Below are positions 9,066-13,801 of a stretch of 64,000 nt of DNA, piece by piece. The DNA is from Streptacidiphilus sp. P02-A3a (GTDB taxonomy: Bacteria > Actinomycetota > Actinomycetes > Streptomycetales > Streptomycetaceae): NCBI RefSeq assembly GCF_014084105.1, contig NZ_CP048289.1, forward strand, positions 2,117,922 to 2,181,921, in the 5' to 3' direction. Numbering within the stretch: the first letter of the stretch is position 1; each line of letters begins with the position of its first letter. The position numbers and the translations under genes were made by a program. The notes under the pieces were generated by a model. The model ran no database searches, was not told the origin of the DNA, and worked only from the letters and a program-made list of their open reading frames with translations.

Positions 9066-9284
9066 TCAGGCGGTCGGGAACTGGCTTGCCTTGACAGCAT
9101 CGATGAAGGCTGAGAATGCATCGATTCCGAAGACCAGCGCGGGGCCGTTCGGGTCCTTGCTGTCACGCACCGGGACGGCTCCGGGGATGAATCCGGGGGC
9201 TGCTTCGATGCAGTCGCCGCTGTTGGTGCCGCTGTAGCTGCTCTTGCGCCACGGGGCTAGGGTCAGGTCGTGAGTGGTCGTCAT
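9066..9284 (-). CDS. DUF397 domain-containing protein
   Basis: 72 residues with the DUF397 signature: WRKSSYSGTNSGDCIEAA near the N-terminus, then VRDSKDPNGPALVFG and a terminal FIDAVK helix. DUF397 proteins are very common in Streptomyces and nearly always sit directly downstream of a DUF5753 helix-turn-helix regulator, where they are thought to act as partner or antagonist (BldB/WhiJ-type systems). That arrangement is kept here, but the partner gene upstream carries an in-frame stop. ATG at 9284 lies inside the regulator's extended 3' end, a 122-bp overlap that is longer than usual. Confidence 0.85.
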   Translation of the reverse strand: MTTTHDLTLAPWRKSSYSGTNSGDCIEAAPGFIPGAVPVRDSKDPNGPALVFGIDAFSAFIDAVKASQFPTA

Positions 9285-10134
9285 GTTCCAAGCTCTCCCT
9301 TGCTTTGCTGATCCATGCGGCGGACTCGCGGGGGGACAACGCATCCGCCCGGAGCAGATCATAGGTGCGCCTGTGGCGCGTGAGGACCGTCGGATCGTTA
9401 CTCAGGTGGCCTCGGTCCAGCGACTCTGAATAGACCCACTCCGCCCGGTCCGGCATCGTGATGAGCGTCAGGGACGTGTTTGGGGGCTGAATGTGTTCCT
9501 CGCCGTCCGGCGCAAGTTGAATGCGGACGTTCGGTAACTTGCCGACTACGAGCAACTGGTCGAGCTGGTCGAGCTGGTCGAGCATGACGGCCCGGCTGCC
9601 AACTCTTCGCCGGATGCACACCTCGTCCAGGACGACGACCAGGAGCGGCGTGTCATCGTCATTATCACCGCGCAGGAACCGCTTTTGCCGATCAATGCGG
9701 GCTGCGACGCGTTCATTGACTGGCTTCCCGTTAGGGTCTGGCTCTCGGGACAACAGGACGTGTGCATAGTCCCAGGTCTGCAACAATCCTGGTACCTAAC
9801 CGGTTTGGTACACATCGAGGCGTACAGCCTTCTTGTCCATCTCGGCTCGGTCCTGGAACCAGTCCGGATACTCAGGTGGGTACCAATCGATGTCATCCCA
9901 CATGTCCGTTAGCTGGGTACCCGTCTGTAGCAGCGCGTCGCCCTTCTCGGCCACTTCCCGGGACGGGACGTTCTTGCCGGTCTCGTACCCCGCAAGTGTG
10001 GAGCGGTCGAATCCGAGGTGACTCGCGAGTGTGACCTGGGTGAACCCACAGGCCTCCCGTGCCCGCTTGAGTAGTCGGCCCCACAGGGCTCTCGGTGTCT
10101 CCGCCTGACCCCTGGAGCCGTTGCGCTGACTCAC
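9163..10134 (-). pseudogene. XRE-family DUF5753 regulator interrupted by an in-frame amber codon
   Basis: Read from GTG 10134, the frame gives an XRE helix-turn-helix (RAREACGFTQVTLASHLGFDRSTLAGYETGKNVPSREV), then YPDWFQDRAEMDKKAVRLDVYQTG, and then TAG at 9796-9798. The same frame resumes with VPGLLQTWDYAHVLLSREPDP and a full DUF5753 domain to 9163. Intact relatives carry a residue such as Leu in place of this stop (LVPGLLQT), so one TTG-to-TAG change explains it. The DUF5753 half also carries an expanded LDQ repeat, and the C-terminus runs on into the DUF397 gene in another frame. It could be a recent pseudogene, a sequencing error, or read-through. It lies divergent from the lasso operon and might once have regulated it together with the DUF397 gene. 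Confidence 0.8.
9556..9582. repeat. 9-bp tandem triplication inside the interrupted regulator
   Basis: CTGGTCGAG is repeated three times without change, giving an LDQ-LDQ-LDQ stretch on the minus strand. Related proteins have a single EQL-type segment here, so this looks like a recent slippage expansion. Confidence 0.8.
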
Positions 10135-10703
10135 AACCCACCACCCATACAAATGTTCTGATGCCTTGCCTGATCTTGCTACCGCGATGTTGGAGTGTGC
10201 GACTCCCACGCTGCAAAGGCTGTTCCCGGGCCCCCTGTTTGGCAATCCTGGGGATACAGATGCAAACGAATAATGACGGCACGTCACAAGTACTCCGAGT
10301 ACCGGCGGCGGGTGATCGCATGACGCCCCGAAAGACAACGCCATCCCCAGCGTACCGACCGGCACCCGGCACAGCCGTCGGGGACGCTGCAACTGGGGTG
10401 GCATCGAGAGTGAGACCACCCCGGACATGCTCCGGCAGGCGACGCAGGATGAGCGTGTCTGACGGCTGACGCCAGGATCTTGATTGGGCACCGACTCGCT
10501 GAGCGGGCACGCGGTGACCGAATAGCCCCCGCTGCAACCGATGACGGAAACGCGGTTCTTTCGTCGCCCCTGAACCCCCACACCGGACGCGTGTTCCCCA
10601 ACCGTGGACCGGAGCGGGTCCAGCGCCCTTGTGACAAGCCGGATTGTGTCCGGACGCAAGGGATGTCCCATCCCACCTAGTAACCGGAAAGGAGGAACGC
10701 AGC
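10135..10703. other. 570-bp control region between the DUF5753 regulator and the lasso operon
   Basis: No convincing gene was found; open frames on both strands lack coding-type third-position bias. The base composition is less GC-rich than the flanking chromosome, for example around 10180-10280. The end nearest the operon carries CCGGATTGTGTCCGG, a short inverted repeat, about 60 bp before the precursor start. Promoters for both divergent units are expected here but cannot be placed securely. Confidence 0.5.
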
Positions 10704-10847
10704 ATGGAGGATCAGAACATGGCACCGATGGACCAGGGTGCCGACGCCTTGATTCCGCCGGCGGTCATCGTCTTGGGCGACGCCGCCACGCTGACTCGGG
10801 GCAGTAACCAGAACAGCACCGAGTCGAAGCAGACCCCGTACGACTAA
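10704..10847 (+). CDS. lasso peptide precursor, albusnodin-like
   Basis: 47 residues with an ideal ribosome site (AAAGGAGG, 10688-10694). The leader (residues 1-32) contains LIPPAVIVLGDAATLTRG, which fits the lasso leader pattern: a Pro needed for recognition, a Gly-Asp segment, and Thr31 at the conserved -2 position. The predicted core is GSNQNSTESKQTPYD. Gly1 and Glu8 are exactly spaced for an eight-residue macrolactam ring, and the tail carries the only Lys at core position 10. A cyclase, leader peptidase and GNAT acetyltransferase follow in the same operon, so acetylation of that Lys is expected, as described for albusnodin. The core itself is Ser/Asn/Gln-rich and was not recognised as a known lasso peptide. 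Ring size and modification are predictions. Confidence 0.85.
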   Translation: MEDQNMAPMDQGADALIPPAVIVLGDAATLTRGSNQNSTESKQTPYD

Positions 10848-10862
10848 TCGACGGGCTGAACC

Positions 10863-10895
10863 GGCGGCGGCTCCTCACTACGGGGGGTCGCCGCC
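10863..10895 (+). other. stem-loop between precursor and cyclase genes
   Basis: GGCGGCG (10863-10869) pairs with CGCCGCC (10889-10895) around a 19-nt loop. RiPP operons often have such a hairpin after the precursor; it can stabilise the upstream mRNA or attenuate read-through so that precursor is made in excess over enzymes. Confidence 0.5.
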
Positions 10896-10923
10896 TTCGT
10901 GACTGCGACAAGGAGGTGCCGAG

Positions 10924-12618
10924 TTGAACGAGTCTCCGAAATGGTTCGGGGGATGCGCACCCGGGGGACAGGCTGTCGTCCCAGTGGGTGCGGTCCTTGT
11001 CTGGACGGATTTCCTGCTGTGGACGGTGGGGGGCGACGCCGGACATCTGCGGACGGTTGAGCAGCACGGAGCGCGCCTTGCGGTGCTTGGGCCGTGCAAC
11101 GCCTCCGACCACGACATGTTCCGGGCTTTGGCGAGCGATGATCTCGCTGCAGCCGTTCGGCTTTGGGCGGGTGCGTTCACGGTCGTCCGGATCCAGGGGC
11201 CGGGTTCGGTGGAGATCCTTACCGACGCCTCGGGAGCCGCCCCCATCTACAGGGTGAGTGCCCCCGGTGGTGTGGTCTGGGGGTCGAGCGCTCGCGCTTT
11301 GTCTTCGCTGTCCACCGGCAGCATTGACATGGATTGGCTGGCTGCGTACCTGAGGGAGAGGAACGCACCGGCTGCCGGGCGGAGCGCATGGGCGGGTGTC
11401 TGCCCGGTTCCCGCCGGGTCCGTGATGACCTTGGGTACAGGGGGCCGTAGCTCAGTGGCCGACTGGTGGTCCGCCGTGCGCCGACCGCCCGGTGAGGTCG
11501 TGCCCGCTATCAGGTGGGCACTCAGCGAGGGAGTCCGCGTCCGAGTGGAGGGAGTCACCACCACATCGGATCTGGCGGGCATGGACTCAACCACGGTCGC
11601 GTTGCTGGCTGCCCGGCACGGTCAGGTTGCTGGCATGACTCTGCACCCCGCAGGGACCGAGGACGGCGGGGACATGCAGTACGCGCGGGCACTGAACGTG
11701 CCGAACCTGTGGCGCACCACCTTCCCGCTCGGCGTCCGCCATCTCCCCTTTACCAGGGGCCGGACTGTACTTCCGGCGACCGACGAACCGGCCCCCTCAA
11801 CCCCGGTGTGGGCCATGTTCGCCGAACAGTTGAAGGCGATAGCTGATGCCGGTTCAGGCTGCCACCTGACCGGGGACGGGGGCGACAACCTGTTCATGGC
11901 TCCACCTGCTCACCTTGCCGACCTTGCCCGCCGTGGACGGCTACTGCGGGTGGTGACTGACGCGCTGGACTGGGCGAGACTCCGCAAGCAGAACCCCCGA
12001 CCGCTGATAGCGGCTGCCCTCCGGAGGGACGCGGGACGTATCAACAGGGCCGAGCGGCCTCGTCCGGCCTGGCTCACGGTCGATGTCCCGGACCCGGTGT
12101 ATGGCGGCGTGGCGGGGGGCGATGCGGACGCGGTCCTCGTCGCGTCGATTCGCGACATCGCACGGTCGGCCCATTCGGAAGTCCAGTTGGCCGATGCGCT
12201 GGGAGTGGCGCTGCACAACCCCTACTTTGACGGGGCTGTGCTCGACGCGGTTGTGTCCGCTCCACCTGAGCGCCGCTTCTCCGCGCACCGATACAAGCCG
12301 CTGCTCGCCGACAGCTTCGCCGATGTGCTCCCGCCGACACACCGGGAGCGTGCGTCCAAAGGGCTGTTCGTGGGCGACTACCACCAGGGCGCGCGAGTCA
12401 ACTTGCCACGTCTGCTCGCCCTCGCCGACGGACGCCTATCGGCCCTGGGCCTGATCGACCCGACCCCGCTACGCGCTGCCATGCATGCAGCGGCCCTGGG
12501 GGCTCCGACGATTTGGCCGCCACTGCTGTCTGCCGTCGCGGCGGAGTCCTGGCTGGAGGCAGTTGAGACCACAGCGCGAACCGAATGGGCTGCGCCGACT
12601 GGATCGGGGGCACTATGA
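10924..12618 (+). CDS. lasso peptide cyclase (asparagine-synthetase-like, C protein)
   Basis: 564 residues, the usual length for lasso cyclases. TTG at 10924 is chosen from the strong AAGGAGG site seven bases upstream. The N-terminal glutaminase-like domain lacks the catalytic Cys2 of true asparagine synthetases (it starts MNESPKW), as in other lasso cyclases. The synthetase domain has the ATP-pyrophosphate loop as SDLAGMDST (residues about 213-221) and GDGGDNLF around residue 317. The enzyme is expected to adenylate the side chain of core Glu8 and close the macrolactam with Gly1, in the cytoplasm. It overlaps the next gene by ATGA. The ATP loop departs from SGGLDS in a way common to this enzyme group. 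Confidence 0.9.
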   Translation: MNESPKWFGGCAPGGQAVVPVGAVLVWTDFLLWTVGGDAGHLRTVEQHGARLAVLGPCNASDHDMFRALASDDLAAAVRLWAGAFTVVRIQGPGSVEILTDASGAAPIYRVSAPGGVVWGSSARALSSLSTGSIDMDWLAAYLRERNAPAAGRSAWAGVCPVPAGSVMTLGTGGRSSVADWWSAVRRPPGEVVPAIRWALSEGVRVRVEGVTTTSDLAGMDSTTVALLAARHGQVAGMTLHPAGTEDGGDMQYARALNVPNLWRTTFPLGVRHLPFTRGRTVLPATDEPAPSTPVWAMFAEQLKAIADAGSGCHLTGDGGDNLFMAPPAHLADLARRGRLLRVVTDALDWARLRKQNPRPLIAAALRRDAGRINRAERPRPAWLTVDVPDPVYGGVAGGDADAVLVASIRDIARSAHSEVQLADALGVALHNPYFDGAVLDAVVSAPPERRFSAHRYKPLLADSFADVLPPTHRERASKGLFVGDYHQGARVNLPRLLALADGRLSALGLIDPTPLRAAMHAAALGAPTIWPPLLSAVAAESWLEAVETTARTEWAAPTGSGAL

Positions 12619-13238
12619 GCAGGGCAAACACCGTCGCCGCGATCACCTCCTACGTCTGCTTACTCGTTGACTACGACACCGGACGCACCGAGTTGCGCCC
12701 AGCCTCCGAGGAAGCCGCAGCGCTGGCGGGGCACGTCATCGTCCTCCCCGAACCGTCATTGACATGGGGCACGGTGGAGCAACGGGCCGCTCTGGCTGCC
12801 GTACCGAGCAGTCCCCTCCGCTGGCGGGTGGGGGCCGTTGCGGCGGTGCTCGTCACGGCTGGGGCATTGATGCTCGGGCGTCGCCGACATCGCTTCCGGC
12901 GGCTGGCCTGGCTCGCGTGCTCGGGGCGGAAGCTACGACCCGCGACAGCGTGTCAGGCTCGCTACGCTGTGTGCGCGGTCCGGTGGGCGGCCCGCCTGAT
13001 GCCGACTCGGTGGGCGTGCATGGAGGAATCGACTTCTGCGGCGGTCCTGCTCGTCCTCGCCCGACGCCGGGCGGAGTGGCAGCACGGGGTTGCCGTTGAC
13101 CCCGCACGGCTGCATGCCTGGATCAACGACTCGGACGGTAACCCTGTTGAGGAGCCCGCCGACACCAGCCTCTACACCGCCACCTACACACCAGACGGAC
13201 CCGCATCGGTCGGGACCGGCAGGGAGTTGCAAGCATGA
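12615..13238 (+). CDS. lasso leader peptidase (transglutaminase-like B protein)
   Basis: 207 residues from ATG 12615, which overlaps the cyclase stop. The C-terminal 130 residues match the B2 protease: RPATACQARYAVCAVRWAAR, a Cys in RWACMEESTSAAVLL, His in LHAWIND and Asp in DGNPVEEP, giving the Cys-His-Asp triad. Residues 1-70 precede a hydrophobic segment (VGAVAAVLVTAGALML) and contain CLLVDYDTGRTELRPASEEAAAL. This loosely resembles the strand-helix pattern of a PqqD-type leader-recognition element, so the protein may be a B1-B2 fusion with a divergent recognition domain. No separate B1 gene exists in the operon. It removes the leader so that Gly1 is freed for cyclisation. Confidence 0.85.
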   Translation: MSRANTVAAITSYVCLLVDYDTGRTELRPASEEAAALAGHVIVLPEPSLTWGTVEQRAALAAVPSSPLRWRVGAVAAVLVTAGALMLGRRRHRFRRLAWLACSGRKLRPATACQARYAVCAVRWAARLMPTRWACMEESTSAAVLLVLARRRAEWQHGVAVDPARLHAWINDSDGNPVEEPADTSLYTATYTPDGPASVGTGRELQA

Positions 13239-13801
13239 GTGATCCACACATCCTCCTGTCCGGAGACAGGCTCGCCCTCGGGATGCCTCGACAGGATCTG
13301 CTTCCCGAGTACCACAGGTGGGAGAACGATGCCCGAACGATCATGGGCTACGGGAACCAGTGGGCCCAGGCGTGGGAAGTGCGCGCCGCAGGGTACGAGC
13401 GGCAGCGTGGCAACGACCGGTACCAGCAGTTCGAGATTGTGCAGCTCGACGGCCAAGAGGCTGTCGGCATCACCGTGTTGCAGATCAACACCTTTGTCCG
13501 GACGGCTGAGTTCGTGATCGTGCTCGCTCCCGAGGCGCGAGGAAAGGGCTACGCAGCCGAGGCGACGCGTCTGACGCTGGACTGGGCGTTCAACCTGGGG
13601 GCGCTGCGCATGGTCTGGCTCAAGGTCCTGGAGCCGAACCGGGCAGGGATCGCCGCGTACGCGAAGGCCGGATTCCGGGAGTCCGGACGACTTCGGCAGT
13701 CGGGGTTCTGGCTCGGTAAGCCGGTGGACGAGATCATCATGGACGCGCTGCCGGACGACTTCCCGGGACCGTCTGCGGTGGCTGCTGTCATCGGCGACTG
13801 A
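13235..13801 (+). CDS. GNAT N-acetyltransferase of the lasso operon
   Basis: 188 residues with the GNAT fold: VGITVLQINTFVRTAEFVIVLAPEARGKGYAAEA holds strand beta-4 and the acetyl-CoA loop RGKGYA, and MVWLKVLEPNRAGIAAYAKAGFRESG is the motif B region. It overlaps the leader peptidase by ATGA and so belongs to the same operon. In albusnodin-type clusters a co-encoded GNAT enzyme acetylates a Lys of the lasso peptide; the predicted core here has one Lys, at position 10. It could act before threading, and might also serve self-protection. Function on this peptide is inferred from context. Confidence 0.82.
   Translation: MSDPHILLSGDRLALGMPRQDLLPEYHRWENDARTIMGYGNQWAQAWEVRAAGYERQRGNDRYQQFEIVQLDGQEAVGITVLQINTFVRTAEFVIVLAPEARGKGYAAEATRLTLDWAFNLGALRMVWLKVLEPNRAGIAAYAKAGFRESGRLRQSGFWLGKPVDEIIMDALPDDFPGPSAVAAVIGD

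Follow-up and report, generated by a model that had tools for sequence, protein, structure and literature searches.

A new albusnodin-family lasso peptide operon in Streptacidiphilus and the apparent erosion of its leader-recognition domain

How do the enzymes of a lasso peptide cluster recognise their precursor when the domain that holds the leader is incomplete, and what does an acetyltransferase contribute to such a cluster? Both questions are raised by an operon located at positions 10704-13801 of a 64,000-nucleotide stretch of DNA from Streptacidiphilus sp. P02-A3a (contig NZ_CP048289.1, hereafter the window), where four genes in the order A-C-B-T encode a precursor, a lasso cyclase, a B2 protease and an acetyltransferase of the GNAT family, in the same order as in albusnodin clusters. 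According to PMC6784204, every lasso cluster contains a RiPP (ribosomally synthesized and post-translationally modified peptide) recognition element (RRE), a domain defined as three strands and three helices in the text of PMC12710340. In the corresponding region of the window's B protein the model has only strands and there is no match to PF05402; since a complete RRE, held to be universal, was not found, the window's lineage represents a new variant of lasso biosynthesis. The explanation that we favour, with a probability of roughly 0.8, is that of an albusnodin-type operon whose product would be a Gly1-Glu8 lasso acetylated at Lys10, whose leader would no longer be read by a standard RRE, and whose GNAT would have a dual role.

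The operon and its predicted product

As the initial annotation, made from the sequence alone, had proposed, the locus belongs to the albusnodin family, of which it is a new member. The precursor, MEDQNMAPMDQGADALIPPAVIVLGDAATLTR (leader) followed by GSNQNSTESKQTPYD (core), scores 36 bits against NF033525 (NCBIfam, cut-off 30), and the cyclase scores 600 bits against NF033561 (cut-off 300) and falls inside the albusnodin/ikarugamycin lasso cyclases, not outside the lasso C proteins. As that annotation had also read, the precursor has 47 residues, with Thr at -2, Gly1, an acid within positions 7-9 (Glu8, codon 10821-10823) and a single lysine, Lys10 (codon 10827-10829). The GNAT domain is recognised by PF13302 (Pfam, 57.9 bits); a general housekeeping function of this enzyme was considered and rejected, the nearest named family being spermidine acetyltransferase, with 58 bits against a cut-off of 218. 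The B protein had been described as a plain B2 protease, which holds for its C-terminal part: the transglutaminase-like peptidase match to NF033537 (70 bits, cut-off 33) spans residues 69-191 only, and the eroded RRE that precedes this part had been overlooked. Cys135 and His167 of B are invariant across 37 aligned rows, and we take them to be catalytic.

The same gene order was found again in 53 loci beyond the window, hence the arrangement is not due to chance. These belong to a set assembled from genome searches, 16 named loci and re-fetched stretches, which comprises 54 loci with a GNAT (window included) and 20 without it, after removal of a duplicate (L132, with the same core as L060) and of a decayed locus (L137). 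Four GNAT-less cyclase loci (L092, L095, L097 and L102), where no B, RRE or precursor was found, are excluded from every percentage, and L069, whose GNAT is split between frames, is counted as GNAT-linked and left out of the GNAT tree. Precursors were obtained from 52 of the 54 GNAT-linked loci, as the contigs of L055 and L065 start inside the cyclase, and from 16 GNAT-less ones. The pattern used to find them scored Thr at -2, Gly at -8, Gly1 and an acid at 7-9, and did not require Lys10, Tyr14 or Tyr -17. Cyclases above the NF033561 cut-off are present in 1/14 genomes of the window's genus, 39/394 of its family and 15/394 of its class, the window's own genome being counted each time.

Comparison of the cores supports Glu8 as the predicted ring residue and Lys10 as the acetylation site, in agreement with the initial annotation. 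Gly1 and the motif E-x-K-[RQ]-x-x-Y are present in all 52 GNAT-linked precursors, and this motif in none of the 16 GNAT-less ones. In 51 of the 52 cores it is placed at Glu8, Lys10 and Tyr14; the remaining one, GTTNRSGPEDKRYKYT of L135, has Glu9, Lys11 and Tyr15 and would form a ring one residue larger, so that the Glu-x-Lys spacing holds when the ring grows. The lysine is single in 43/52 of these cores, and in the window peptide its side chain would be the one free amine once the ring is closed, which leaves the GNAT one plausible side-chain target. The exact core occurs once among 48 distinct cores, and a text search returned no paper containing ESKQTPYD; its novelty thus stands. The accompanying idea that its polar ring is unlike that of known lasso peptides does not, given the near-identical cores of L050, L051, L052 and L056: the closest ones, GSDQNSTESKQNPYD (L050) and GSDQNSTESKQSPYD (L056), each differ at 2/15 positions, which makes a polar ring ordinary for this clade.

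From these features we infer the following route. The precursor would be produced in excess and its Lys10 side chain acetylated by the GNAT; the B2 peptidase would cleave after Arg -1, next to Thr -2, and the cyclase would close the ring between Gly1 and Glu8. The expected product is a threaded peptide of 15 residues that carries a single acetyl group and has a calculated [M+H]+ of 1679.714, the value for its unacetylated form being 1637.704.

The closest known system is albusnodin from Streptomyces albus DSM 41398, which shares the gene order, the precursor and cyclase families, Glu8, Lys10, Tyr14 and the GNAT, and whose leader likewise lacks the YxxP motif, an exception already noted in PMC6784204; its core, given as GQGGGQSEDKRRAYNC in PMC12427821, shares few residues with that of the window. 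The GNAT-less clusters resembling 9401-LP2 (GSSPNGxADANAQYY, a sequence taken from PMC5974421) have, like the window, a related NF033561 cyclase and a B2 protein, but differ in their complete RRE, their YxxP leader, a likely ring acid at Asp9, and the absence of Lys10 and of a GNAT.

The RRE of the B protein and the reading of the leader

In the GNAT-less relatives the fused B proteins start with a complete RRE and the unfused loci carry one beside B. The PqqD domain (PF05402, Pfam) is detected in B in 9/9 fused GNAT-less loci versus 0/37 GNAT-linked ones. Likewise, an RRE profile matched in all 16 GNAT-less loci (independent E-value of 0.0017 or lower), nine of which had trained it and seven had not, and gave no match beside B in the window's clade. 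The highest residual scores among the GNAT-linked loci are those of L135 (20.0 bits) and L127 (16.8 bits).

The window's clade can be linked to the complete domain through the albusnodin-type proteins. The N-terminus of albusnodin-type B matches the complete RRE (profile E 3e-9), and its model shows strands followed by helices at 38-50 and 58-66. The top two Foldseek rows for this model are TbiB1 and a lasso B1, each with its leader (5v1v and 6jx3; probabilities 0.99 and 0.98), though with E-values of 0.11 and 0.19 these rows are not significant by E-value alone. The N-terminus of B from the window's clade aligns in turn with the RRE of the albusnodin type, over 34 columns (E 1e-8). The AlphaFold model of the window's B protein (mean predicted local distance difference test, pLDDT, of 88) has strands at 6-10, 14-19, 25-29 and 40-43 and a four-residue helix at 32-35; it has the same beta-sheet as the TbiB1 and lasso B1 complexes, without the helices of the RRE fold, two of which are still present in the shortened RRE of the albusnodin-type relatives. 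The distance between the hairpin glycine and the Trp-Gly pair, measured on the 37 aligned rows of B only and not on the later class-wide loci, decreases from 67-70 residues in L069, L076 and L077 to 59-61 in the albusnodin type, 34 in the L066 type and 25-29 in the window type. Taken together, the comparison of sequences and predicted models indicates that the RRE was eroded stepwise, and that a small beta-sheet remains of it in the window's clade. No published description of RRE erosion in the albusnodin family was found in the literature searched, which excluded the original albusnodin paper.

This change is accompanied by a change in the leader. The YxxP motif is held by RREs (PMC13381572); in the known lasso leaders it sits in a hydrophobic cleft of this domain (PMC6784204, section 5), and the same review describes it as general in actinobacteria except for albusnodin. 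Tyr -17 and Pro -14 are present in 16/16 GNAT-less leaders. None of the 52 GNAT-linked leaders has Tyr or Trp at -17, nor [YW]xxP in its last 26 residues; that of the window keeps Pro at -14, has Leu at -17 in place of Tyr, and continues as V-I-V-L-G-D-A-A-T-L-T, with ...AATLTR as its C-terminal end. Leader positions -12, -11, -9, -8, -7, -6, -3 and -2 are identical in 20 or 21 of the 21 sequences from the window's clade. This strong conservation suggests that in this clade the site of leader recognition has shifted toward the point of cleavage. B and/or the cyclase would most likely read V-I-x-L-G-D-A-A-x-L-T next to it, given that only a beta-sheet is left of the domain in B and that the leader tyrosine has been lost.

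A complete RRE could also be provided from elsewhere. Its transfer to another gene of the cluster was rejected, as there is no match beside B and no extra domain is reported in the cyclase or the GNAT. That it acts in trans from a distant locus is very improbable: RRE-like matches far from the cluster do exist in the GNAT-linked genomes G051, G136, G168 and G176, and weakly in G083, but in the window's genome the RRE alignment, which failed to detect one of its four controls (G331), matched nothing at E 0.01, and nothing exceeded the PF05402 cut-off; the same alignment, with that failure, was also negative in G370, G139 and G196.

Some points weigh against the explanation favoured here. The N-terminus of B in the window's clade has no direct match to a complete RRE (probability 3%). 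The split in GNAT, lysine, RRE and leader tyrosine corresponds to a single branch of the cyclase tree (69 rows), with all the GNAT-linked cyclases on one side of it (SH-aLRT 93), and not to many independent events; the joint change is therefore one historical event, and only the later erosion of the RRE forms a series. The albusnodin recovered from hosts is acetylated and so does not reveal the active form. Finally, the leader may still bind to the conserved sheet as an added strand, in which case only the helices would have been dispensable. We consider this last possibility less probable than not. Tyr20, Gly23 and Trp51 are invariant in 21 sequences, and since it is conserved the stub is not mere debris; residues 1-40 are predicted with pLDDT values of 88-94, and the sheet overlays that of TbiB1 at 1.2 Å over 26 columns, an overlay that is not significant (E 5). 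On the other hand, the helices and the leader tyrosine are both absent here, and the known leaders described in PMC6784204 use YxxP in the RRE cleft. Foldseek and VIA-align assigned no significant fold to the N-terminus of the window's B protein, and a search of PDB sequences with this protein returned nothing useful; the missing RRE row in VIA-align means nothing, because this comparison matched mainly the peptidase half.

The role of the acetyltransferase

Albusnodin is acetylated at Lys10, and deletion of albT abolishes all product (PMC9266682); attempts to conjugate a cluster with its core into three Streptomyces hosts yielded no exconjugants, as reported in PMC5974421. The clusters of triculamin and lariocidin, which belong to other lasso families and are compared with the window by role only, also include a GNAT, which acetylates a lysine for self-resistance (PMC13352647). 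In PMC8498205, the reason why albusnodin needs its acetyltransferase, resistance or folding, is left open, and the order of the steps is considered unknown.

The distribution of the GNAT bears on this issue. A match at 1e-20 is present in 58/388 genomes of the family, so that this gene is commoner than the cluster. Among 40 stretches examined around a GNAT without a full cluster, 33 had no cyclase, B or precursor nearby, and seven had debris of B, once of the cyclase, in front of the GNAT, which is intact in six of them (L156, L157, L160, L166, L170 and L171) and carries a stop codon in L161. A control search with B as query added two decayed loci, L196 and L197, both with a broken GNAT, and in L137 the precursor and part of the cyclase are kept and the GNAT is absent; in total, the GNAT is intact in six decayed loci versus broken or lost in four. 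In a tree of 95 rows, orphan and remnant GNATs nest at several places among the cluster GNATs. The ratio of nonsynonymous to synonymous substitution rates is 0.10-0.29 for 13 orphan pairs and 0.07-0.11 for three cluster pairs, where some orphan pairs share rows and are not all independent, and part of the divergence may predate orphaning. The comparison thus indicates that the GNAT can survive the loss of its cluster under apparent constraint.

A clade of 23 stand-alone GNATs (L173-L192 and L163-L165) sits on a long branch of this tree and comes from one genus of the family (g6), where a resistance gene has possibly been fixed or a new function acquired; as this clade could have another function, weight was placed on the orphans nested among cluster GNATs. 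Second GNAT copies were also seen, in tandem behind the first in L060 and about 4 kb upstream of the cyclase end in L059, and both group together near the GNAT of L135.

Orphan GNATs, the failed conjugation and the self-resistance GNATs of two other lasso families make self-protection the better supported role, judging from sequence comparison. It is possible, though we consider it less probable than not, that protection is the whole role and that the GNAT acetylates the finished lasso in the producer, as in triculamin and lariocidin. The six intact GNATs beside B debris agree with this; nevertheless, the four decayed loci in which the gene is lost or broken do not, the orphan GNAT of L172 is split between frames, and the GNAT is the last gene of the operon, so that deletions from the front would spare it. 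Moreover, the order of steps is considered unknown, as mentioned above, and the complete absence of product when albT is deleted keeps a role in maturation in play.

At the opposite extreme, the GNAT would have taken over the selectivity of the RRE, B2 and/or the cyclase accepting only the Lys10-acetylated precursor. The deletion of albT left no unacetylated intermediate, according to the account in PMC9266682; the gain of the GNAT, Lys10, the loss of the leader tyrosine and the erosion of the RRE all fall on the same lineage, and the Glu-x-Lys spacing is kept despite the nine-residue ring of L135. However, the basal GNAT-linked loci L135 and L127 retain weak RRE scores, so that any replacement of the RRE by the GNAT was not immediate; the strong conservation of the leader from -12 to -2 means that something still reads it, and the orphan GNATs suggest a role in which B and C take no part. 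We regard such a gate as unlikely, and doubt even more that the lineage has dispensed with RRE-based recognition altogether, acetyl-Lys10 now admitting the precursor to peptidase and cyclase. In the dual role that we favour, the GNAT would most likely mark the peptide during maturation and also keep it harmless to its maker.

Neighbouring features and significance

The features of the operon and its surroundings are listed in Table 1. ATGA overlaps join the cyclase to B and B to the GNAT, and these three genes are thus coupled; the claim that the coupling extends to the precursor failed, as 76 bases without such an overlap separate it from the cyclase. None of 200 shuffles was as stable as the hairpin found in this gap. 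Gaps at z < -2 were found in 33/51 GNAT-linked loci folded, and in that set the window's own gap, cut slightly longer, gave z -1.49. This hairpin may set the ratio of precursor to enzymes and keep the precursor in excess.

Table 1. Features of the operon and of the adjacent genes in the window.
Feature	Position	Strand	Basis or remark
Shine-Dalgarno-like AGGAGG 5' of the precursor	10690..10695	+	sequence
Lasso precursor gene, 47 amino acids	10704..10847	+	ATG at 10704, stop 10845-10847; NF033525
Leader peptide, 32 amino acids	10704..10799	+	sequence and precursor comparison
Core GSNQNSTESKQTPYD; predicted Gly1-Glu8 ring and acetylated Lys10	10800..10844	+	sequence, core comparison
14-bp hairpin between precursor and cyclase	10863..10895	+	RNA fold, z -2.25
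Lasso cyclase (C), AsnB-like, TTG start	10924..12618	+	NF033561, tree
B protein, 207 amino acids: putatively eroded RRE and B2 leader peptidase	12615..13238	+	profiles, alignment, AlphaFold model
Putative RRE remnant in B, spanning residues 6-43, made of strands alone, without a long helix	12630..12743	+	AlphaFold model, profile links, spacing
B2 cysteine peptidase domain, residues 69-191	12819..13187	+	NF033537, PF13471
GNAT acetyltransferase (T), 188 amino acids	13235..13801	+	PF13302, albusnodin-type neighbours
XRE/DUF5753-like regulator (presumed), pointing away from the operon	9163..10134	-	in-frame TAG 9796-9798; possible linked regulator
Small DUF397-like protein (presumed), open reading frame paired with the regulator	9066..9362	-	open reading frame list

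The regulator, which we presume to be of the DUF5753 type, may be broken in the window because of its in-frame TAG; the DUF397-like name of its small partner is likewise our assumption. Six near relatives (L050, L051, L053, L057, L061 and L062) have a similar divergent pair upstream. The cyclase gene is in more than one piece, in different frames, in L056, L061, L063 and L136, due to sequencing error or decay. In one genome (G168) two albusnodin-type clusters, L066 and L067, lie about 16 kb from each other, and their cores show a Gly/Ala difference at position 9 and a different last residue. Spread by plasmids was rejected: distant relatives (less than 60% identity) of the cyclase and the GNAT were found on seven and eight plasmids, respectively, none of them near the window's clade.

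With these comparisons, the YxxP exception known from albusnodin becomes a large lineage, with 54 loci, that has lost the leader motif and whose RRE was eroded stepwise. The graded changes in this lineage offer natural material for studying substrate recognition by lasso enzymes that work without an RRE. They are also relevant to the question considered in PMC8498205, why albusnodin needs an acetyltransferase, for which the orphan GNATs and the cluster debris favour protection.

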